Of a stretch of 38,934 bases of DNA, positions 9,943-25,958 are shown one piece after another; within the stretch, counting starts at the first letter, position 1; the number at the start of each line of letters is the position of its first letter. A program made the position numbers and the translations under genes. Under the pieces are notes generated by a model that worked only from the letters and a program-made list of their open reading frames with translations, was not told the DNA's origin and ran no database searches. Source of the DNA: Oceanospirillales bacterium (GTDB lineage Bacteria > Pseudomonadota > Gammaproteobacteria > Xanthomonadales > SZUA-38); NCBI GenBank assembly GCA_003233095.1, contig QIKT01000197.1, positions 1 through 38,934 of the forward strand, in the 5' to 3' direction.

Positions 9943-11343
9943 GTGATCAAATACTCATGGTTGGGGCTGTTGTTGGCGATATTTTGCACATCGCTGCACG
10001 CTCTGGAAATTGTTGAGACTGTTCGTATGGACCCTCAGGATGTCAACACTGGTGTGGTCAACCAGGACATCCAGGCCCTGGCTCGTCGCGCCATTGATGA
10101 GAATTTGCAACTGACCCTGACCGCACCCGAATTCTGGAAAGACAAAGTCATTGCTCAGCTAGAAGAGGGCAGCGGTGATGACACCCTGAATTTCAAATAC
10201 CGCAAAACAGTGATTGAAAACGTCATCATCCGCCTGATTAGCACTGAAGTGGCGGCTAAACCGGCTGCTCCGGCACCTGTCGCCGTAACACCTCGCGTTC
10301 AGACTGACAATACCGAAACGACTGAACTGGCTGATGCAGCCGTCGAAGCAATGATCTCCGAGTCGACTTCCAGGGCCGAAGATGACGCCCGTCAGGTCGC
10401 CCGCGAAGCCGCAGAGAAAGCCGCCAGTGAAATGAGCATGAGTCAGGAAAAACTGGACATGGTGGTCGCTCCAGTGACTGCGGTGCCCTTGTCAAAGCCT
10501 GAGCCTGTCATGCAAGAACCCGTCGCTGAGAAGGACAATGCTTCTGTCGTGCAGACGACAGCGGCTGAAGTCGCTGTCAGTGTTCCTCAGGAGGCTACCA
10601 CCGATACGACTCCGCCTGTGACGCCAGAATCTGTCATCGCACAGGCTGCTCCAGCTGAGGAACCTGCGATTGTCGCCGAGACTGACAACGCCTCACGCGT
10701 CGTGCTGGATACTGATCAGGATCACGTGACCACTCCAGCTACGCTTGGCGTGGCCGACCAGGCCGCCGCTAGGACAAGTCTGGAACGACGCCTGAACAAT
10801 GGCCGCAGCATTGACCGTGATATCGCGGTTGACGAGATCCGTCAGGGTGATGTGCTGTTTGTCACAGACGGCGTCATGGCACTGGTTCGACGCGGAGGGG
10901 CACGTCAGCGCGTTTATTGGGTCAACGGCTCAGTTGACCTGGAGTCGGACGCATTGAATCGGGAGCAGGCAGGCAAGTATTCGGTTTTGTCGACGCTGAA
11001 CATTGCTGGTGAAGATGCTGAGGGGGCGACCGTCACCGAGGTGATCGCGGACGAACCTGAAGAGGTTATTGTCGAGGTGGAAGTGGCCGTTCCAGCCAAT
11101 CAAACTGAGCGCGCCCGAATGGAAGCCTTGTATAACGATGGCAAAATAATCGACGAAGGGCTATCTATCGCCGGACTGCTGCCTGATGACACCCTCTATG
11201 TTGGTAACGGCGAGATCATGGTCTTTCGTCAGGGGCGACTGCGAGCTCGGAAATTCTGGCTGGAAGAGCCGATTGATCTGGAACTCGAAGAGTTGTACAA
11301 CATCGGCACTCGCAAGTATCTCGTCAAGCGTCTCATTCGTTGA
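9943..11343 (+). CDS. Secreted protein of unknown function with duplicated C-terminal domain
   Basis: The GTG start gives a signal peptide (IKYSWLGLLLAIFCTSLHA) and a 466-aa product that I do not recognise. Residues about 20-100 form a compact region (TVRMDPQDVNTGVVNQDIQALARRAIDENL). Residues about 105-275 are a low-complexity Ala/Pro/Glu/Val linker. Two related copies of a domain follow: NNGRSIDRDIAVDEIRQGDVLFVTDG...ARQRVYWVNGSVDLE (about 276-350) and YNDGKIIDEGLSIAGLLPDDTLYVGNG...RARKFWLEEPIDLE (about 386-466). They share order and spacing, indicating an internal duplication. A periplasmic or surface location is inferred from the signal peptide. ACGGAC precedes the start. Confidence 0.75.
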   Translation: MIKYSWLGLLLAIFCTSLHALEIVETVRMDPQDVNTGVVNQDIQALARRAIDENLQLTLTAPEFWKDKVIAQLEEGSGDDTLNFKYRKTVIENVIIRLISTEVAAKPAAPAPVAVTPRVQTDNTETTELADAAVEAMISESTSRAEDDARQVAREAAEKAASEMSMSQEKLDMVVAPVTAVPLSKPEPVMQEPVAEKDNASVVQTTAAEVAVSVPQEATTDTTPPVTPESVIAQAAPAEEPAIVAETDNASRVVLDTDQDHVTTPATLGVADQAAARTSLERRLNNGRSIDRDIAVDEIRQGDVLFVTDGVMALVRRGGARQRVYWVNGSVDLESDALNREQAGKYSVLSTLNIAGEDAEGATVTEVIADEPEEVIVEVEVAVPANQTERARMEALYNDGKIIDEGLSIAGLLPDDTLYVGNGEIMVFRQGRLRARKFWLEEPIDLELEELYNIGTRKYLVKRLIR

Positions 11344-16904: not shown

Positions 16905-16934
16905 CGTCTGCGGGTCAGCTCTGACCTGCAGACG
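16905..16934. terminator. Hairpin between the FKBP gene and the lasso operon
   Basis: CGTCTGCGGGTCAG-CT-CTGACCTGCAGACG pairs over 14 bp with one G-U. It overlaps the B1 stop codon and lies 12 bp past the FKBP stop. No T run follows on either strand, so termination activity is uncertain. Confidence 0.5.
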
Positions 16935-17196
16935 TTCGCATCAGCCCGCGTTCGAGTAATGAATCGACCAGCTTGATCAGATCGGTGTGAATGATCTGGG
17001 TCTCGGCTTCAAACTCTTTGCCTATCTGTTTGACGATCTCTGTTTCGGAGTCGCCACTGAGGATCATTTCGAACATTCTGGTGGCCACCACATTGAGTTG
17101 AAAGTACTGGCCGGATTCCGGCTCTACCAGAACCATTTCTTCGCCCACTCGCTCGGCTAGCAACGTCTCGTTGACTTCCAGTTGTTCCACGTTCAA
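16915..17196 (-). CDS. Lasso peptide B1: PqqD-like precursor-recognition protein (RRE)
   Basis: The 93-aa product has the PqqD/RRE pattern: EEMVLVEPESGQYFQLNVVATRMFEMILSG, then a winged-helix part ending in LIKLVDSLLERGLM. In lasso systems split into B1 and B2, this protein binds the leader peptide and delivers it to the peptidase and cyclase. It starts with TTG (17196-17194), which overlaps the B2 stop as TTGA, so translation is coupled to B2. It is the last gene of the operon. The nearest ATG lies 20 codons downstream and would remove part of the conserved fold. Confidence 0.88.
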   Translation of the reverse strand: MNVEQLEVNETLLAERVGEEMVLVEPESGQYFQLNVVATRMFEMILSGDSETEIVKQIGKEFEAETQIIHTDLIKLVDSLLERGLMRTSAGQS

Positions 17197-17618
17197 GGCG
17201 TTTTCTCCGTGCCAGAAGACTGAGTTGGCTTGAGGGTAATCAGTCGCTCCAGCAAGCTCTCGTCCTGATCCAGTCTCAATGAACCGGCTTGCACCCAGGC
17301 ATGCGCCCTGAATGCAGACGCCGTCCCAGTGGTGGCGTGCACTCCGAGTTTGATGCAGGCATCAATTCCGTCAGAACGAAGTCGTCTGCTTAGCCAGATT
17401 GCCCGCGTCAGACACGTTGACCATGGCATCCACGCGGATCCCATGGACTGATGCAGGCGATGCTGACACTGCGCTTCGGTATGGCTTGACAGTGGCTGCG
17501 TTCTGGCATCTTCTGTGCCTAACAAGTGTTGTGCAACTGGTTGAAAACCTTTCAGTTTCAACTGGATTGAAACACGGGATACCCCAACAGTTCCAGTCAT
17601 TCTATCGATCAGTGTCAT
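17193..17618 (-). CDS. Lasso peptide B2: transglutaminase-like leader peptidase
   Basis: The track ORF starts at 17729 inside the kinase gene, but ATG 17618 forms an ATGA overlap with the kinase stop and gives 141 aa, the usual B2 size. The papain/transglutaminase-like core is visible: Cys in WSTCLTRAIWLSRRLRSDGI, the segment KLGVHATTG, and His in FRAHAWVQAG. The catalytic Asp would follow the strand after AHAWV. The family cuts the leader from the core, here predicted after VTM in the precursor. It sits between the kinase and B1 genes, with overlaps on both sides. Confidence 0.9.
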   Translation of the reverse strand: MTLIDRMTGTVGVSRVSIQLKLKGFQPVAQHLLGTEDARTQPLSSHTEAQCQHRLHQSMGSAWMPWSTCLTRAIWLSRRLRSDGIDACIKLGVHATTGTASAFRAHAWVQAGSLRLDQDESLLERLITLKPTQSSGTEKTP

Positions 17619-18556
17619 AGGCTCAGTATAGTGTCTGCAATGGGCTGAACCAAGCGAGAATCCTCGATCGACTGGATCTTCAGGGAGTGGCATTGGCCGG
17701 ACAGGGTGTCTGCCCAGGCAGCGAAGCACGTCAACTGTGTCGCGGTCTGTTTAGGCGCATAGAGCCGAGCGGTGACGGTATGACGGAGCAAGCTCATGAC
17801 GATCTGTGCGCCAGTCAAAGCGGTGGTTTCAATCGGTTTATGAGAGGGGTCAGCAGCACTGATTCGTTCGAGCACAATGAAGCGAGTGATGCTGTTCGGC
17901 TCAGGCTGGAAATCAAGTTTGCCAGACTCAGGCAGTTTCAGTTGCGGATAGTTTTCCGCACGGAATGCATCATCGGCATGTTCCAGCCAGGCGATGTCAT
18001 CGCCCAATCGTCGCCATCCTGGGGATTGCGACAACCGTGCAGACAGGGTTGATTTCCCCGTCCCGCTTTCGCCGCAAATCAGACATAGCCCTTCGGGAGA
18101 TTCGAGCATCGCAGCATGCAACATCGGCTTGCCTGCTGCCGCCATCGCCATGGGTAACAAGGGCCCGAGTATCAGGGTCATCAACTCGGCAGAAGTGATG
18201 GTCCCTTGAGGGTGGATGCGAATAGTCGCCGGCAAATCGGCTGTGGCATATTCCAGTTCACAGTCGGCGAACTGTGGCAGCCGGAGGCTGATACCATTGC
18301 TGTGATGGGCCCAGTGCAGGGCTCTGTCTGCAGACGCAATCCAGAAGCGATCGCACGACTCGATGCTCGTTGACGTGGGATGCTTCCATGATTTCTTGCC
18401 ACTGGCAGGCAGGCCACACAATGGCGAGGGCGCTTGAACTTCGAATGAGTCAAGCGCTTTGCTGAGTCTGGGTGAGGAAACAATCATGGCCCCAAACCGA
18501 TAGTGGATCGGGGTGTCATCGCGGTGAGTCAAATGGAGGATAACTGACAGAGTCAT
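17615..18556 (-). CDS. HPr-kinase-like lasso peptide tailoring kinase (K)
   Basis: The 313-aa protein has an HPr kinase-type core in its second half: a P-loop in CLICGESGTGKSTLSARL (about 170-187) followed by RRLGDDIAWLE. The N-terminal half (HYRFGAMIVSSPRLSK ... LHWAHHSNGISLRLPQFADCELEYA) matches the extended family found in lasso clusters rather than true HprK, and no PTS genes are nearby. Characterised homologues of the paeninodin type phosphorylate the C-terminal Ser of the precursor. The precursor here ends in Pro, so the acceptor is unclear. The gene lies 22 bp after the precursor stop and overlaps B2 by 4 bp. Confidence 0.85.
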   Translation of the reverse strand: MTLSVILHLTHRDDTPIHYRFGAMIVSSPRLSKALDSFEVQAPSPLCGLPASGKKSWKHPTSTSIESCDRFWIASADRALHWAHHSNGISLRLPQFADCELEYATADLPATIRIHPQGTITSAELMTLILGPLLPMAMAAAGKPMLHAAMLESPEGLCLICGESGTGKSTLSARLSQSPGWRRLGDDIAWLEHADDAFRAENYPQLKLPESGKLDFQPEPNSITRFIVLERISAADPSHKPIETTALTGAQIVMSLLRHTVTARLYAPKQTATQLTCFAAWADTLSGQCHSLKIQSIEDSRLVQPIADTILSL

Positions 18557-18578
18557 CGGTCCATGATCCGTGGTGGTG

Positions 18579-18752
18579 TCAGGGCCTCAAGGAACCCGAG
18601 TTACCGCTTTCACCGACGCCTGGTGTTGGCCCCATGGTCACGTCACGAACGTCTCCACAGTCAAGCACAAGCGGAGTCTGATAGGCCTGCCGAGGAGTGT
18701 TCGGCGAGGTTTCGATGCTGGGTGGATGGTTTCCGGCATGTTCTGGGGTCAT
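18579..18752 (-). CDS. Lasso peptide precursor (A), missing from the ORF track
   Basis: The gap between C and K encodes a 57-aa peptide, from ATG 18752 to TGA 18581-18579. AGGTAGAG precedes the start. The 40-residue leader carries YQTPLVLDCGDVRDVTM, matching the lasso leader rule Y..P.L...G.....T, with Thr at position -2. The predicted core is GPTPGVGESGNSGSLRP: Gly1, then Glu8 as ring acceptor, so an 8-residue ring GPTPGVGE and a 9-residue tail. The core lacks aromatic residues, so Leu15/Arg16 are the only bulky plug candidates. Its position among C, K, B2 and B1 makes the call strong. Ring size and cleavage site are predictions. Confidence 0.9.
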   Translation of the reverse strand: MTPEHAGNHPPSIETSPNTPRQAYQTPLVLDCGDVRDVTMGPTPGVGESGNSGSLRP

Positions 18753-18841: not shown

Positions 18842-20536
18842 TCAGGCCACGGTCCGAGAATGGCTCAACTGGGATTCGATCCAGTCAGCCTCCAGATAGT
18901 CAGGCCAGCAGGCATGGTCGGCATGCAGAATCTGCTCAGCCCGATGGCGATGCTGTTCGATGCCGTGCATAAAGATCGAGGCGAAGCTTGTCTTGCCGAC
19001 TCGCTGGGTGATCTGCTCAGGGAGACGTTGCTGCATGGCTTGTCTCATCAACCATTTACTCTGGCCTGTCACTGGGTCGGTGAGATAGTGGGCCGGCAAG
19101 CTGAGCATGAAGCGTATCAGTGCAGGATCTCGCAGGGGGTAGTGTTGATTGATTCCCCAGTTGGCATGAATCTGCCGGCCAAGCAGGGCTGAGTCGGCGG
19201 CATTGACACTCAGGCAGGCTTCGAAGCGGTCGGGCTCAGCGAGGGCGTTGAGATACTCCCTTTGGCGCGATTCGAACAACAGTCGATTGGCACCTGGTGT
19301 CAGCCAGGCGGTATGCCGCTGCCTGAATCGTCTGGAGCATCCGTTCAGCGGTAACAGTCTGCGAAGCGAATCCTGCCGACGAAATCCTTTCAAACCATGA
19401 GCCTTGATGCGACTGCGAATGACGGAGGCGATTCCCGGCTGTCGCGCGCGCCACGCGTCTCGCAGATGATAGTGTTGTCCCAGATAGAGGTGGTCGCCGA
19501 AGTCGCCGGTCATCAGGGTATCCATACCATCGTCGAGAACACGACATGCCAACTGATGCCTGAGCACGCGGTAAGGGTCGATGAACGGGGCCTGGAGCGG
19601 TGACTTCATGGCCATGAACGCATCACTGAGTGGCTCAGGTTGCCGAATCGTGACGCGTTCAGTCGCGATGCCGAGATGAGCACGGAGTGCGTCGGTGTAG
19701 CGATGCTCATTACCGGCCGGGAAATCTGCAAAATCCCAGCTGTACGCCACCGCCTTGTCGGTCTGTCTGGAGAGGCTGGCTGCGACAGCGGTCGAATCCA
19801 TGCCGCCACTGACGGCCAGACCGATTTGTCCCGAGCTGCTATTCAGCGACATCATGCTGCGCTCTACCGATTCATCCATCAAGCGGATCAGTTGCTGTTC
19901 AGCATCATTCTGGTTCATCGTGCGGGCTTGAGAGTCCACATGGAACCATTGGAAGCGTTTCATGCGGACCTGCATTGGATTCAGTGTCACCGCATACATG
20001 GGCACCGCTTGCCTGATTTCATTGAAGAATGTGCTTCCGGGTTCGGCGTTTTCCAGACCCAGATGACTGGCAATGCGATGTCGGTTGAGCGTATAGCGGC
20101 GATCATTGCAGTTGAGTAAGCACTGTTCGTCAGAGCTGATCAAAGTCTGTCCTCTCAGTTGCTGATAGAACAGGCTATAAAGGCCACACATCGATCGATA
20201 CAGCGTGGCATGCTGGCCCCGGATTTCAAGCATGGCGAAATGATTGTCATCAGGATTGTTCAGACGGCCTTGTGCATCGAGACAGGCGGACTCAGTCATC
20301 AACACTCTCAGGTGATCAGCCTGTTGGTTCAGATGAACAACTCCAGGGTGCTGATCGGCCAAGCTGGCAACAGGCAGTTCGGATGCCGATTCAGTCAGCA
20401 TGGCCAGACTGGCGCAACGAGTGCTGAGAATAATGGGCTGGCGATCGCTGACTCGAGCCAACATGTGCTGTACCTGTCTCTCGCGAGCCTGGACAGGCGC
20501 ATCCGACACGATAGCGGTCAATGCTCGTACTTTCAT
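18842..20536 (-). CDS. Lasso peptide C: asparagine-synthetase-like macrolactam synthetase
   Basis: The 564-aa protein has the two-domain asparagine synthetase B layout. The N-terminal glutaminase-like domain (about 1-200) lacks the catalytic Cys at position 2 (it starts MKVRALTAIVSD). The C-terminal ATP-pyrophosphatase domain has the PP-loop LAVSGGMDSTAVAASLSRQ at about 242 and HYPLRDPALIRFMLSLPAHYL near the end. Loss of the glutaminase Cys is usual for lasso cyclases, which adenylate an Asp or Glu side chain and join it to the new N-terminal amine. It starts 3 bp after the N gene stop, with the precursor 89 bp downstream. Confidence 0.93.
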   Translation of the reverse strand: MKVRALTAIVSDAPVQARERQVQHMLARVSDRQPIILSTRCASLAMLTESASELPVASLADQHPGVVHLNQQADHLRVLMTESACLDAQGRLNNPDDNHFAMLEIRGQHATLYRSMCGLYSLFYQQLRGQTLISSDEQCLLNCNDRRYTLNRHRIASHLGLENAEPGSTFFNEIRQAVPMYAVTLNPMQVRMKRFQWFHVDSQARTMNQNDAEQQLIRLMDESVERSMMSLNSSSGQIGLAVSGGMDSTAVAASLSRQTDKAVAYSWDFADFPAGNEHRYTDALRAHLGIATERVTIRQPEPLSDAFMAMKSPLQAPFIDPYRVLRHQLACRVLDDGMDTLMTGDFGDHLYLGQHYHLRDAWRARQPGIASVIRSRIKAHGLKGFRRQDSLRRLLPLNGCSRRFRQRHTAWLTPGANRLLFESRQREYLNALAEPDRFEACLSVNAADSALLGRQIHANWGINQHYPLRDPALIRFMLSLPAHYLTDPVTGQSKWLMRQAMQQRLPEQITQRVGKTSFASIFMHGIEQHRHRAEQILHADHACWPDYLEADWIESQLSHSRTVA

Positions 20537-20539
20537 GAC

Positions 20540-21688
20540 TCAGTGATTCACGTTTGGCTTGGGGCCTCGAATCAAGTTCCAGAAACCATTGAGCAGACGT
20601 CTCAGATAAAACCAGGGCAGGGTGATTCGATGGCGGATGCGATAGCGTTGGATCATGTAACGAGCCGGTGGCAGCATCAATTCCAATAGAAAGGCCAGCC
20701 GATCTGGCCATGACTGGACGGACAAGTCCTGTTTCAGTGCTTGCCATCCTCCGACCTCAACGGCGATCTGGTCTCCCGCCGCAACGGCCTGCACGAGTTG
20801 CTGGCGTTGATCAGCATCGATCAGCGGATCGAACCAGCACAGCATGGCATCGGCTTCGTGAAGCAGGGCCTCAGCCAGGCCATGCTCTGAAAACAGCTTG
20901 AGACACTGACTCTGCTGGGTACTGTCGAATTGCTGCCAGATCAGCCACAGATCAATCCACCAGATCATTCGGATGTCCTCATGATGATGGCTGACCCTGT
21001 GGATGACCGCATGGATCATGGCCAGTTCTGGAGGCAGGCAATGGGCTGTTTGAGCCGCTGCTGCAGCGTCAAACAGTGTCTGCTCATTGAGACTCGCAGC
21101 GTACACCTTGCGGTTGGAGACTGACCAGTGAAGATCGACGGCAAGATGACAGCTGCTCGAAAGCGTTCGACCATATTGCTGTTCGGAAAAAACCAGGTCA
21201 GCACCGGTAGACAGGGTTCTGAAGTAGCCACAGCGCTCGAGTAAGGCCATGGCCCTGTCTCGATGGTCGCGACGGACCAGCACATCCACGTCGCCTCTCA
21301 TCCGAAGTCGCGATGCCGGGTACAGCCAGCGCCCCAGTGCCTCGCCCTTGAGCAGTATCCAGTCGATCGATGCCTCGTCAAATTGACGACTCAGGTCGAC
21401 AAATGCCTGTTGTTGCATCAACCATTGAGCCGTGTACACACGGGCTGATTCGGCCACCGGTTTTTGCTGCAGTTCCGAGAGCTGAATCAAGCCTTGTAGT
21501 GACCATTCATGAACCATCAGCGTGATACCATGAAGATCCAGAAATTCGAGCAGATTGTCGCGGTCATTAGAGACTTGACTGTCGATGCACGACTGAACGG
21601 CAGAAATCAAGGACTTATCTGCCCAAATTGTTGAATTTTTGGTAAAATTGTCCAAGAGTGCTTTGATTTCAAACCATTCAGACAACAT
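20540..21688 (-). CDS. Lasso cluster nucleotidyltransferase-family protein (N; PF14907-like)
   Basis: The characteristic NTP_transf_5 motif is clear: DWILLKGEALGRWLYPASRLRMRGDVDVLVRRDHRDRAM, with the G-D-x-D metal-binding residues. HLAVDLHWSVSN and a helical C-terminal half with IHAVIHRVSHHHEDIRMIWWIDLW follow. Such proteins accompany kinases in lasso clusters; in pseudomycoidin the homologue is reported to add sugar to a phosphorylated peptide. The start is uncertain. ATG 21688 gives 382 aa. ATG 21751 adds 21 residues but overlaps the ATG of the divergent gene. It is the first gene of the operon. Confidence 0.82.
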   Translation of the reverse strand: MLSEWFEIKALLDNFTKNSTIWADKSLISAVQSCIDSQVSNDRDNLLEFLDLHGITLMVHEWSLQGLIQLSELQQKPVAESARVYTAQWLMQQQAFVDLSRQFDEASIDWILLKGEALGRWLYPASRLRMRGDVDVLVRRDHRDRAMALLERCGYFRTLSTGADLVFSEQQYGRTLSSSCHLAVDLHWSVSNRKVYAASLNEQTLFDAAAAAQTAHCLPPELAMIHAVIHRVSHHHEDIRMIWWIDLWLIWQQFDSTQQSQCLKLFSEHGLAEALLHEADAMLCWFDPLIDADQRQQLVQAVAAGDQIAVEVGGWQALKQDLSVQSWPDRLAFLLELMLPPARYMIQRYRIRHRITLPWFYLRRLLNGFWNLIRGPKPNVNH

Positions 21689-21749
21689 ACTAGCAGTATC
21701 AGTCAGGGAGTCGGCAGAAATGCGCAGTAAACGGCAAGACGGGACGGTC

Positions 21750-23549
21750 ATGATTCTACGTACAATTTTGTTTGCAGCGCTGTTCAGTGCGGCAACCTCG
21801 GGCATGTCGGCAGAAATCAGGGAAGATATCTCTGACGCCAAGCAGGACGATGTGTCGGCTCGCGACATTACACGTCAACTCGTCGACCGCGGCGAACATC
21901 CTGCCAACGTCGCTCAGGCCGTGTCCGAAATCTACGGCAGCTGCGACGACATTGCCAGCAGCGTTTCAGAAGCTGTCGAAGGCCGCCGGGAATATCTTGA
22001 ATCGGTCGTTTCCTCGGTCTCTGCATTGGGTGAATGCGGTTGCAGTGCAGATTCATTATGGTCACGTACCCGACTGGAGTCGCGACTCAGGTTGCCCTCA
22101 ACCAGACTGCTGGTAGAACTTGATCCGAGCATGGCCTGTGCGGCGGTGGCCGCTGAATCGGCCAGTTACCACTTTGCTGAAGATTCCGGCCTGATTCTTG
22201 AGGCGGCCATGCAAGCGCGTCAACCTCAGTCCATTCCCTACGACTCTTTCGGAACCTTGACCAAGGGCAATCAGGCACCAGCACAAGCTTACAAACGCCA
22301 GTCCTTCTATTGCAGTAACGATCGTGATTTGTCGGATGAATTTGAACAGCAGGATCGATGGATGGCATTTTCTCCGGGTTCTCTGCCGCAGGCTGACTGG
22401 ACGCCGGATTGCGATGAGGATGACGAATATGAATCTGAGGATCGCGATGGAACTGATACCCTTCTGATTACCGAAGTGGCTATGCCGGGTAGCGGCGGTT
22501 CCTACGTAGCACTGTATAACGGCACCGATCAGCCTCAGGATCTCAAGCAGTCCGGTATCAGCTTGTCGGTCTTCTTCAATGGCGCGGCCAAGCCTGGATT
22601 GGTGGTTCCTCTGGAGGGTGTGATCCCGTCTCGAGGCCATTTTGTGGTCGGTGGATCACGCTTTGACGAAAATCAGATTGATCAGGTCGAAAGCGGTTTC
22701 AAGCTCTCACCGAACGACAGTGTCGCGATTACGCCTCCGGTGGTCAGCTATAACTGTGACGGCATTCGATCGGTGTTCGGAGGAGCGCTTCGTGGTGCCG
22801 TGCAGATCGACGATGCTGATGAAAACAGCCATCTTGTGATTCATCCGCGCGAATTGGTCAAGAACAAGGTCGCCCGACAGTTTGGTGCTCTGCAGGGCAA
22901 GACGCCAGGCTACGTGGCCGATGCAGTCGGTCAGGTGCCTCTGGATGAGGACGATCTACCGATTGCGCTGCTCGACAACGCGCTGACTCGACAGACCAAT
23001 CAATGTCAGCCAGACAGCAATGAAACCGATACCTTTGCCGGCAGTTCGAACTGGACCAGCACTGCAGGTGCCAGTCTGGGGAAACCTAACAATCAATGCC
23101 GTAGCAACTGGCATGACGGGGTTCTGATTTCGGAGCTGGCCAACGGTGAAGATCAGCAAGATGCCGTCGAAATCTACAACGGTGGTCAAGGGACAATCGA
23201 TCTCGGTGAGGAAGGCTACTTCCTGGAGATTTATCGTGGTGGCAATGAGCAGCCTGATGAAATTGTCACGCTCGAGGGGAAAATCTCACCTGAGCAGATT
23301 TTCCTCATCGCCAATAATGATGTGGATGACAGCATCCAGGATCTTGCCGATCAATTGACTGACGAAATTGTCCTCGATGATGCGACAGCGGTGTTGCTGG
23401 TTCGTCAGCTGACACCCGGTGGTCGCCAGTGTCGCAATTCCATTGCCGGTCTGCTGACGCTCGAGAACGTCCCGAATGTAGTTTATGTGCCGGGGCCTGA
23501 TCGAACACCCGAGCCTCCCAGAGTCGATCCGATCGCCAGCCCGAATTGA
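21750..23549 (+). CDS. Secreted protein with two lamin-tail (LTD-like) domains
   Basis: ATG 21750 opens a signal peptide (ILRTILFAALFSAATSGMSA), so the track start at 21639 is too long. The 599-aa product has a helical N-terminal region with several Cys (YGSCDD, ECGCSAD) and an acidic linker (DCDEDDEYESEDRDG). Two lamin-tail-like beta domains follow: LLITEVAMPGSGGSYVALYNGT (about 236 on) and LISELANGEDQQDAVEIYNGG (about 457 on). LTD domains occur on secreted bacterial nucleases and surface proteins; no nuclease motif is visible here. The Pro-rich tail lacks the IFxDxFE ending of the subtilase. It is divergent from the lasso operon; a functional link is unproven. Confidence 0.78.
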   Translation: MILRTILFAALFSAATSGMSAEIREDISDAKQDDVSARDITRQLVDRGEHPANVAQAVSEIYGSCDDIASSVSEAVEGRREYLESVVSSVSALGECGCSADSLWSRTRLESRLRLPSTRLLVELDPSMACAAVAAESASYHFAEDSGLILEAAMQARQPQSIPYDSFGTLTKGNQAPAQAYKRQSFYCSNDRDLSDEFEQQDRWMAFSPGSLPQADWTPDCDEDDEYESEDRDGTDTLLITEVAMPGSGGSYVALYNGTDQPQDLKQSGISLSVFFNGAAKPGLVVPLEGVIPSRGHFVVGGSRFDENQIDQVESGFKLSPNDSVAITPPVVSYNCDGIRSVFGGALRGAVQIDDADENSHLVIHPRELVKNKVARQFGALQGKTPGYVADAVGQVPLDEDDLPIALLDNALTRQTNQCQPDSNETDTFAGSSNWTSTAGASLGKPNNQCRSNWHDGVLISELANGEDQQDAVEIYNGGQGTIDLGEEGYFLEIYRGGNEQPDEIVTLEGKISPEQIFLIANNDVDDSIQDLADQLTDEIVLDDATAVLLVRQLTPGGRQCRNSIAGLLTLENVPNVVYVPGPDRTPEPPRVDPIASPN

Positions 23550-23619: not shown

Positions 23620-24975
23620 ATGCGAGTGACTATCTTTGGTACCGGCTATGTCGGACTGGTGACTGGTGCCTGCTTGTCCAACATGGGCAATCAGGTGTTG
23701 TGCATGGACCTGGATCAGACCAAAATTGATGGCCTGAAGCAGGGCGTCATTCCGATCTACGAGCCCGGACTGGATGCGATCGTTCAGGAAACCACTCAAT
23801 CTGGCCACCTCAGATTCACCACTGACGCCGAGGAAGCAGTCGCCTTTGGCGAGATTCAGTTGATCGCAGTGGGTACTCCGCCCGATGAAGATGGCAGTGC
23901 CGATCTTCAACATGTGCTGGCGGTGGCAAACACCATTGGCGAATTGATGAGCGACGACAAGATCGTTGTCGACAAGTCGACTGTGCCGGTCGGCACAGCG
24001 GATCGTGTCCAGCAGACCATTCAAGCTCAGTTGGACAAGCGCGCAGTGAGGGCACATGCTGCGGTGGTCTCAAACCCAGAATTTCTCAAGGAAGGCGCTG
24101 CGGTTGACGACTGTATGCGACCAGATCGAATTATTCTGGGCTCTGATGATGAAGACGCTATTGCGGTCATGAAGGCATTGTATGCGCCGTTCAATCGCAA
24201 TCATGACAAGATCATTGTCATGGATGTTCGATCGGCCGAGCTGACCAAATACGCCGCCAATGCGATGCTTGCAACCAAGATCAGCTTCATGAATGACATG
24301 GCCAACCTGGCCGAGCGAGTGGGTGCTGATATCGAACTGGTTCGCCAGGGCATCGGATCAGATCCTCGAATCGGTTTTTCTTTCATCTATCCGGGCTGCG
24401 GCTATGGCGGCTCCTGTTTCCCCAAAGACGTCAAGGCACTGGTGCGCACGGCTGGTCAGCATGATTACAACATGCGAGTGCTGGATGCCGTCGAGGCCGT
24501 CAATCAGGATCAGAAACATCGACTGTTCGAGCGGATCACGGAGTTTTATCGCGGTTTAGAGCTGTCGAGCAAGACCTTCGCTATCTGGGGGTTATCGTTC
24601 AAGCCCAATACCGACGATATGCGAGATGCGACCAGTATCGAGCTGGTTCGAGCACTCTGTGATGCAGGTGCCAGGGTGTGCGTGTTTGACCCGGAGGCCA
24701 TGGACGAAGCCCGGCATGAATTCTCTGATCTTGACTCTGTGATTTACGCCGAATCCGCTCAGGATGCGGTGTCGGGAGCGGATGCTCTTGCGGTGGTTAC
24801 CGAGTGGAAGTCGTTCTGGAGTCCGGACTTCGAGTTACTGGCCAAGACCCTGACTGATCGCGTCATCTTTGACGGTCGCAATATCTACGATCCAGACGTG
24901 GTTGCCGAGGCAGGCATTGCCTATTACGGGATTGGACGCGGGCTGTCTGTCTCGCGTCCAGTGATGTCTAGCTGA
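23620..24975 (+). CDS. ugd: UDP-glucose 6-dehydrogenase
   Basis: The 451-aa enzyme has the NAD-binding [20 protein letters not shown], the loop [11 protein letters not shown], and catalytic Cys in [18 protein letters not shown] (about 260). The C-terminal UDP-binding domain begins [22 protein letters not shown]. It oxidises UDP-glucose to UDP-glucuronate with two NAD+. GGAAA precedes the start. The stop overlaps the uxs start (TGATG), so the two genes form a pathway operon feeding polysaccharide synthesis. Confidence 0.96.
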
Positions 24976-25958
24976 TGCGCTCGACACTTGAACCGCTGCG
25001 TACACTGGTGACCGGCGGCGCCGGCTTCCTGGGCTCATATCTGTGTGATGCGTTGCTCGCCAAGGGTCACGATGTGGTCTGCGTCGACAATCTGTTTACC
25101 GGAAGCAAGCGAAATATTGTTCATTTGCTCAATCATGAGCGATTCGAATTCATCCGTCATGATGTGACCTTTCCGCTCTATCTGGAAGTAGATGAAATTT
25201 ACAATCTGGCCTGCCCAGCGTCGCCCGTCCACTACCAGCACGATCCGGTCCAGACGACCAAGACCAGCGTGCATGGCGCAATCAACCTGCTGGGTCTTGC
25301 CAAGCGCCTGAACGTACCCATCTTTCAGGCGTCCACGTCTGAAGTGTATGGCGATCCGGCGATCCACCCACAGATCGAGTCCTATTGGGGCAACGTCAAC
25401 CCGATCGGCCCTCGATCCTGCTATGACGAGGGCAAGCGCTGCGCTGAGACCTTGTTCTTCGACTATCACCGTCAGCATCAGCTACAGATCAAGGTGGCCA
25501 GAATTTTCAACACCTATGGTCCGCGCATGCATCCCGACGATGGCCGAGTGGTCTCCAACTTCATTGTTCAGGCGCTTCGCGGAATCGATATCACCATCTA
25601 CGGCGATGGCAGCCAGACTCGTTCCTTCTGCTACGTCAGCGACATGATTGCTGCGTTCACAGCACTGATGGCCACTGATGCTAGCGTCACCGGTCCTGTC
25701 AACGTGGGTAACCCGGGAGAGTTCAGCATTCTTCAGCTGGCTGAGCAGGTGATCGAACTGACCGGCTCCTCGTCGAAAATCGTGCACAAGCCCTTGCCAG
25801 TGGATGATCCGGTGCAGCGCCAACCGGATATCAGCCTGGCACAACAAGTTCTGAACTGGCAGCCCGAAGTCCCTCTGAAAGAAGGGCTGATCGAGACGAT
25901 CGCCTATTTCGATTCCTTGTTGTCCGGTTCAGACTCTGTAGAGAACGGCCAGGAATAA
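24975..25958 (+). CDS. uxs: UDP-glucuronate decarboxylase (UDP-xylose synthase)
   Basis: The 327-aa SDR-family protein has the Rossmann motif [15 protein letters not shown] and the UXS-specific [20 protein letters not shown]. The catalytic Ser and Tyr-x-x-x-Lys are in [11 protein letters not shown] and [32 protein letters not shown] is also family-typical. It converts UDP-glucuronate, the Ugd product, to UDP-xylose. No glycosyltransferase is adjacent, so the final polymer is unknown. Its last 55 nt overlap the PDZ-protein gene on the opposite strand. Confidence 0.94.

Follow-up and report, generated by a model that had tools for sequence, protein, structure and literature searches.

A lasso peptide cluster with an HprK-like kinase and a precursor without C-terminal serine: core Thr3 as the most likely phosphate acceptor

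The window, that is the whole analysed stretch of 38,934 nucleotides (contig QIKT01000197.1, assembly GCA_003233095.1), carries an intact lasso peptide gene cluster with an HprK-like kinase (K) and a precursor that does not end in serine. The most likely phosphate acceptor is Thr3 of the core, within the future ring and modified before cyclisation, as suggested by core conservation, by the kinase clades and by the precedents of BsfK and LppK. As a whole we consider fairly probable a scheme for a class II lasso peptide with a predicted G1-E8 ring, in which K phosphorylates Thr3, B2 cleaves, C closes the ring and N probably modifies the phosphate.

The gene cluster

The cluster lies on the minus strand in the order N-C-A-K-B2-B1, its genes close together or overlapping in one run. 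B1 (16915..17196) is a discrete RRE of the PqqD family. B2 (17193..17618) is the leader peptidase (Transglut_core3; PF13471, lasso_biosyn_B2), with conserved Cys68 and His105 (numbering of the aligned 140-aa stretch) and an ATG overlapping the K stop. C (18842..20536) is the lasso cyclase of the asparagine synthase family (Asn_synthase) with the ATP motif SGGMDS. The genes required of a class II lasso cluster are thus all present: the RRE, a Transglut_core3 protein with Cys and His, and an Asn synthetase-like cyclase.

The N gene (20540..21868) encodes an NTP_transf_5 protein (PF14907, E 1.6e-27), the sole match to this family in the window genome, with the GDVDVLV motif and its DxD intact and D193 and D195 invariant. 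At its annotated length N runs into the beginning of a divergent ORF of 636 aa (21639-23549, plus strand); its true start is probably Met40, near 21751, because the relatives begin at a methionine aligned with it. Beside the lasso cluster, at 23620-25958 on the plus strand, are found a UDP-glucose dehydrogenase gene and an epimerase/UDP-xylose-synthase-like gene, and likewise in three relatives. They were considered as a donor supply for N and rejected: FKBP, GntR/ABC and purB neighbours are common to these genomes as well, which makes the adjacency a matter of ordinary chromosomal synteny, and a donor role would be only a guess.

The precursor and its missing C-terminal serine

Gene A (18579..18752, minus strand) encodes a precursor of 57 amino acids, MTPEHAGNHPPSIETSPNTPRQAYQTPLVLDCGDVRDVTMGPTPGVGESGNSGSLRP, composed of a leader (residues 1-40) and a core (residues 41-57), GPTPGVGESGNSGSLRP; leader motif and core are kept in the relatives. 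The leader carries Y(-17)xxP(-14)xV(-12) at residues 24-29 (18666..18683, minus strand), the expected B1/RRE binding motif, and T(-2), followed by G1 and, as the acid for the ring, E8. The residues Y24, P27, V29, T39, G41 and E48 thereby give the class II pattern of YxxPx[L/V], T(-2), G1 and an acid at 7-9. The NCBIfam lasso_leader_L3 match to residues 24-41 is weak and below cut-off (E 0.0089). One precursor of the A type is present in the window genome, in which no second precursor was found.

Precursor A ends in proline and therefore lacks the C-terminal serine on which the PadeK, ThcoK, SyanK and PsmK kinases act. With the precursor alignment as query, 20 loci were found in bacterial and archaeal genomes, and of 399 genomes sampled from the same order 41 had matches in a profile search; no relatives of the precursor were found in viral contigs. 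The 38 distinct related cores come from Lysobacterales, Arenicella and Acidobacteria, and none of them ends in Ser, which bears out the sequence-only reading on this point. Three relatives share the gene order of the window; their cores, GPTPGVGESGNPTNFRP and GPTPGVGESGNPGTLRP, end in ...NPTNFRP or ...NPGTLRP. Since these also end in RP, the absence of the serine is real. Over 19 codons spanning the cleavage site, the window and locus L021 differ in 11 codons, all of them synonymously, which indicates strong purifying selection on the reading frame, while identity is only about 24% for K and about 34% for C and N; the peptide is therefore under much tighter constraint than its enzymes. A frameshift or assembly error that created the RP end of a product truly ending in Ser is rejected on these relatives' cores and codons, no point having been found in its favour, and its probability is negligible. 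Family members ending in Ser together with a frameshift, which the earlier reading had named as the finding that would overturn it, were looked for and not found.

The kinase

K is an intact ORF of 313 amino acids (17615..18556, minus strand) with H147, the P-loop GESGTGKS (162-169) and D186/D187. The catalytic residues of lasso kinases, H147, K168, D186 and D187, are thus retained; over 28 kinases H147, K168 and D187 are invariant and D186 nearly so. Matches to family models are weak (HprK_rel_A, 1.2e-7) or below cut-off (Pfam Hpr_kinase_C, 11.6 against 33.3 bits), K alone matches solved structures weakly, and plasmids gave one weak match. The AlphaFold2 model (pLDDT 84) has its best Foldseek matches to PEPCK (E 1e-6); the TM-scores are modest, owing to differences between the chains in length and N-terminal part. 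A 28-row K profile matches HPrK and PEPCK chains, and the fold is that of an HprK/PEPCK-type P-loop kinase.

It could be argued that K is decayed or repurposed, leaving precursor A unphosphorylated or acting on some other substrate: it evolves fast, sits on a long branch, has at best 28% identity to any relative, and two genomes keep T3/S9 precursors without a strong K match. Against this stand the intact catalytic histidine, P-loop lysine and both aspartates, the position of K in the operon between A and B2 with overlap of the latter, the lack of a second precursor in the window genome, and the retention of K in Arenicella genomes with a split cluster. We regard a decayed or repurposed K as quite unlikely. 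In Arenicella C and A are found at L042-L049, L051 and L053, with K, N and B1 far off at L073-L079; B2 was not recognised at either locus. That the second locus keeps K, N and B1 ties K to this precursor family, and the persistence of K and N although unlinked supports a dedicated role. A strong K was present in 12 of the 13 genomes searched for an unlinked copy. The assemblies of G407 and G1175 (L192), both with T3/S9 precursors, gave no strong K, which may be due to assembly gaps.

The acceptor hydroxyl

Core Thr3 (codon ACA, 18624..18626, minus strand) is the proposed phosphate acceptor, and S or T at this residue is a feature of BsfK/LppK-type systems. Position 3 is Ser in 28 and Thr in 10 of the 38 distinct cores, so that a hydroxyl is kept while the residue changes; the same holds for all 18 distinct cores chosen without a core pattern. 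Ser9 (codon AGC, 18606..18608, minus strand), adjoining the ring acid Glu8, is likewise present in 38 of 38, and positions 12 and 14 vary. Among twelve more divergent cores S/T3 is retained in nine and Ser9 in three, an even-handed comparison since both positions were in the search profile, though one made on related and not independent rows. For several divergent cores with S/T3 only, K is in the same locus (L157, L161, L194, L278, L279).

The sequence-only reading had implied a site other than a C-terminal serine, correctly so, as K cannot use one here; its list of Ser9, Ser12 and Ser14 omitted Thr3, and of the three only Ser9 stands as a live rival. Phosphorylation of Ser9, immediately after the ring-forming Glu8, in place of Thr3 is favoured by a serine never replaced by threonine in the 38 cores and encoded by both Ser codon families (AGY and TCG), i.e. 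selection holds Ser itself at this position; some HprK-like kinases are Ser-specific, LppK rejecting Thr (PMC13381572), and L285 keeps S9 next to an Ile at position 3 with K nearby. Within the window-type group Ser9 is as invariant as position 3, and further points against Thr3 are L204 (A3) and L281 (G3), both, as L285, with K nearby, and several Acidobacteria clusters with K that have neither S/T3 nor S9. On the other side, nine of the twelve divergent relatives have lost Ser9, K being in the locus of several, as against nine retaining S/T3; in both cases where a non-C-terminal site has been mapped for this enzyme type it is residue 3; the hydroxyl residues tested in BsfA were 2, 3, 10 and 11, so residue 9 is not used there; and cyclisation by itself can account for a fixed residue next to the ring acid. 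On balance Ser9 appears an unlikely site. Removal of the last three residues, LRP, as also proposed earlier, would leave Ser14 as a C-terminal serine of the kind read by known kinases (PMC9266682), and Ser12 or Ser14 might be used internally. Neither fits the three nearest relatives, with P/P/P at position 12 and N/T/T at position 14; moreover the conserved part of the core is the LRP/FRP ending itself, and a dedicated carboxypeptidase gene was not seen in the cluster. Conservation thus rules against these sites, and we give them very little probability. Thr3 is the best-supported acceptor in view of the core conservation, the divergent cores and the residue-3 precedents of BsfK and LppK.

Kinase clades and precursor types

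Kinases with identifiable precursors were gathered by way of the B2 family, which was surveyed in 399 genomes of the phylum and in 247 of the Acidobacteria-side phylum. In a 59-row kinase tree a set of 19 rows (98/95) contains the window K and has S/T3 precursors only, two of these rows being less surely matched to their precursors, and most kinases with C-terminal-Ser precursors form a separate clade; proteobacterial kinases of the latter type are in a clade other than that of the window K. In a 72-row tree the window set has 31 members (SH-aLRT 99), and all precursors assigned to it have S/T3 and none a C-terminal Ser. Precursor labels are far more clustered on the kinase tree than in shuffles. 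A tree with the window K forced into the C-terminal-Ser clade was not rejected (p-AU 0.064 and 0.125), owing to the long branch of this kinase, and holding all S/T3 kinases as one clade was neither supported nor rejected (p-AU 0.38).

The rule that a K without C-terminal Ser goes with S/T3 was tried outside the window clade and fails there, at L165, L171, L182, L204, L206, L213, L218-L220, L233, L236 and L281. Many K clusters outside the clade have neither a C-terminal Ser nor S/T3, and acceptors are therefore more varied than either rule. The L204 precursor (10653-10844) has the same leader type (GDLRTLTLGG), an adjoining K and Ala at core position 3. In Acidobacteria-side K clusters at L189 (2741-2926), L193 (2753-2938) and L195 (3403-3660) the precursors end in a conserved Ser-Arg (RLSR, RFSR, RVSR), whose penultimate Ser is a possible acceptor; the kinases of these clusters form their own clade. 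Sets of B1-B2-K-N at L143, L144, L146, L152 and L156 lack both a cyclase within about 5.5 kb and a recognised lasso precursor; their products may be linear phosphopeptides resembling those of the LPP family.

Comparison with known systems and proposed mechanism

The closest parallels are found in kinases which act away from the C-terminus. Experiments on BsfK showed phosphorylation of Ser3 in a lasso core that ends in Asp, with Thr3 also accepted (PMC10368454). The bsf cluster of Bradymonas sediminis (BsfK, BsfA, BsfN; PMC10368454) has, like the window, discrete B1 and B2, C, an HprK-like K and an N gene, and by its published description a precursor without C-terminal Ser, a ring from G1 to acid-8 and a kinase with conserved H/K/DD. 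By analogy with the bsf kinase, which acts on ring residue 3 and accepts Thr, Thr3 is proposed for the window, where Thr is the natural residue. Differences are the leader residue Ile(-2) as against Thr(-2), the adjoining ABC transporter gene and the core of 21 aa ending in Asp. For LppK, experiments placed the phosphate on S3 in a linear core, and S3T was rejected (PMC13381572). The linear polyphosphorylated peptides (LPP; LppK, LppN; PMC13381572) share with the window the HprK-like kinase, a discrete RRE and an NTP-transferase, and carry phosphate on core residue 3, the position proposed here; unlike the window they have no cyclase, a linear product and a signal-peptidase-like leader protease, and LppK refuses Thr3. 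In what the review PMC9266682 describes of the paeninodin type (PadeK, ThcoK, SyanK), K is likewise beside the B genes with the same catalytic His-Lys-Asp-Asp, and the acceptor is, unlike here, the C-terminal Ser. Pseudomycoidin (PsmK, PsmN) also comes from a lasso cluster with K and a PF14907-type N, and in the accounts given in PMC9266682 and PMC8498205 its C-terminal Ser, a residue missing from the window peptide, carries phosphate and hexoses.

To the genes, motifs, S/T3 conservation and kinase clades observed, the favoured scheme adds a kinase activity, a site, an order of steps and a role of N modelled on BsfK, LppK and PsmN-type precedents. K would use ATP to phosphorylate the Thr3 hydroxyl of the linear, leader-bearing precursor, B1 probably holding the leader for K as in bsf. 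B2 would then cut after T(-2)-M(-1) to release the leader, and C would close the predicted G1-E8 ring; as closure follows phosphorylation, the phosphate would end up on the macrolactam ring and not on the tail. N would then probably modify the phosphate, possibly by adding a sugar as PsmN does; the connection to N drawn in the sequence-only reading is to this extent a reasonable proposal.

Significance

The tailoring outcome had been called unexplored from the sequence alone, which is too strong, since papers of 2023 and 2026 describe kinases acting off the C-terminus. For a lasso cluster, a kinase with no C-terminal Ser as acceptor was already on record in 2023, and it is out of date to assume such a Ser. 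The novelty lies in the family, which is broad and strongly conserved and has S/T3 as its natural residue, Thr in the window; no mention of its core sequences was found in the literature searched. The finding corrects the common annotation rule by which a lasso kinase means a C-terminal Ser, and offers a testable sequence rule that pairs one kinase clade with S/T at core residue 3 and another with a C-terminal Ser. More speculatively, and with doubtful prospects at present, the product could be a ring-phosphoglycosylated lasso, its Thr3 phosphate in the macrolactam ring capped by N with a sugar or a nucleotide. In that case the near-invariant peptide would be vertically inherited, not a bacteriocin, and common to Lysobacterales, Arenicella and Acidobacteria. 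In the widespread lasso family defined by the analysis, conservation is far higher in the core than in the enzymes, a sign that the peptide has a conserved role.
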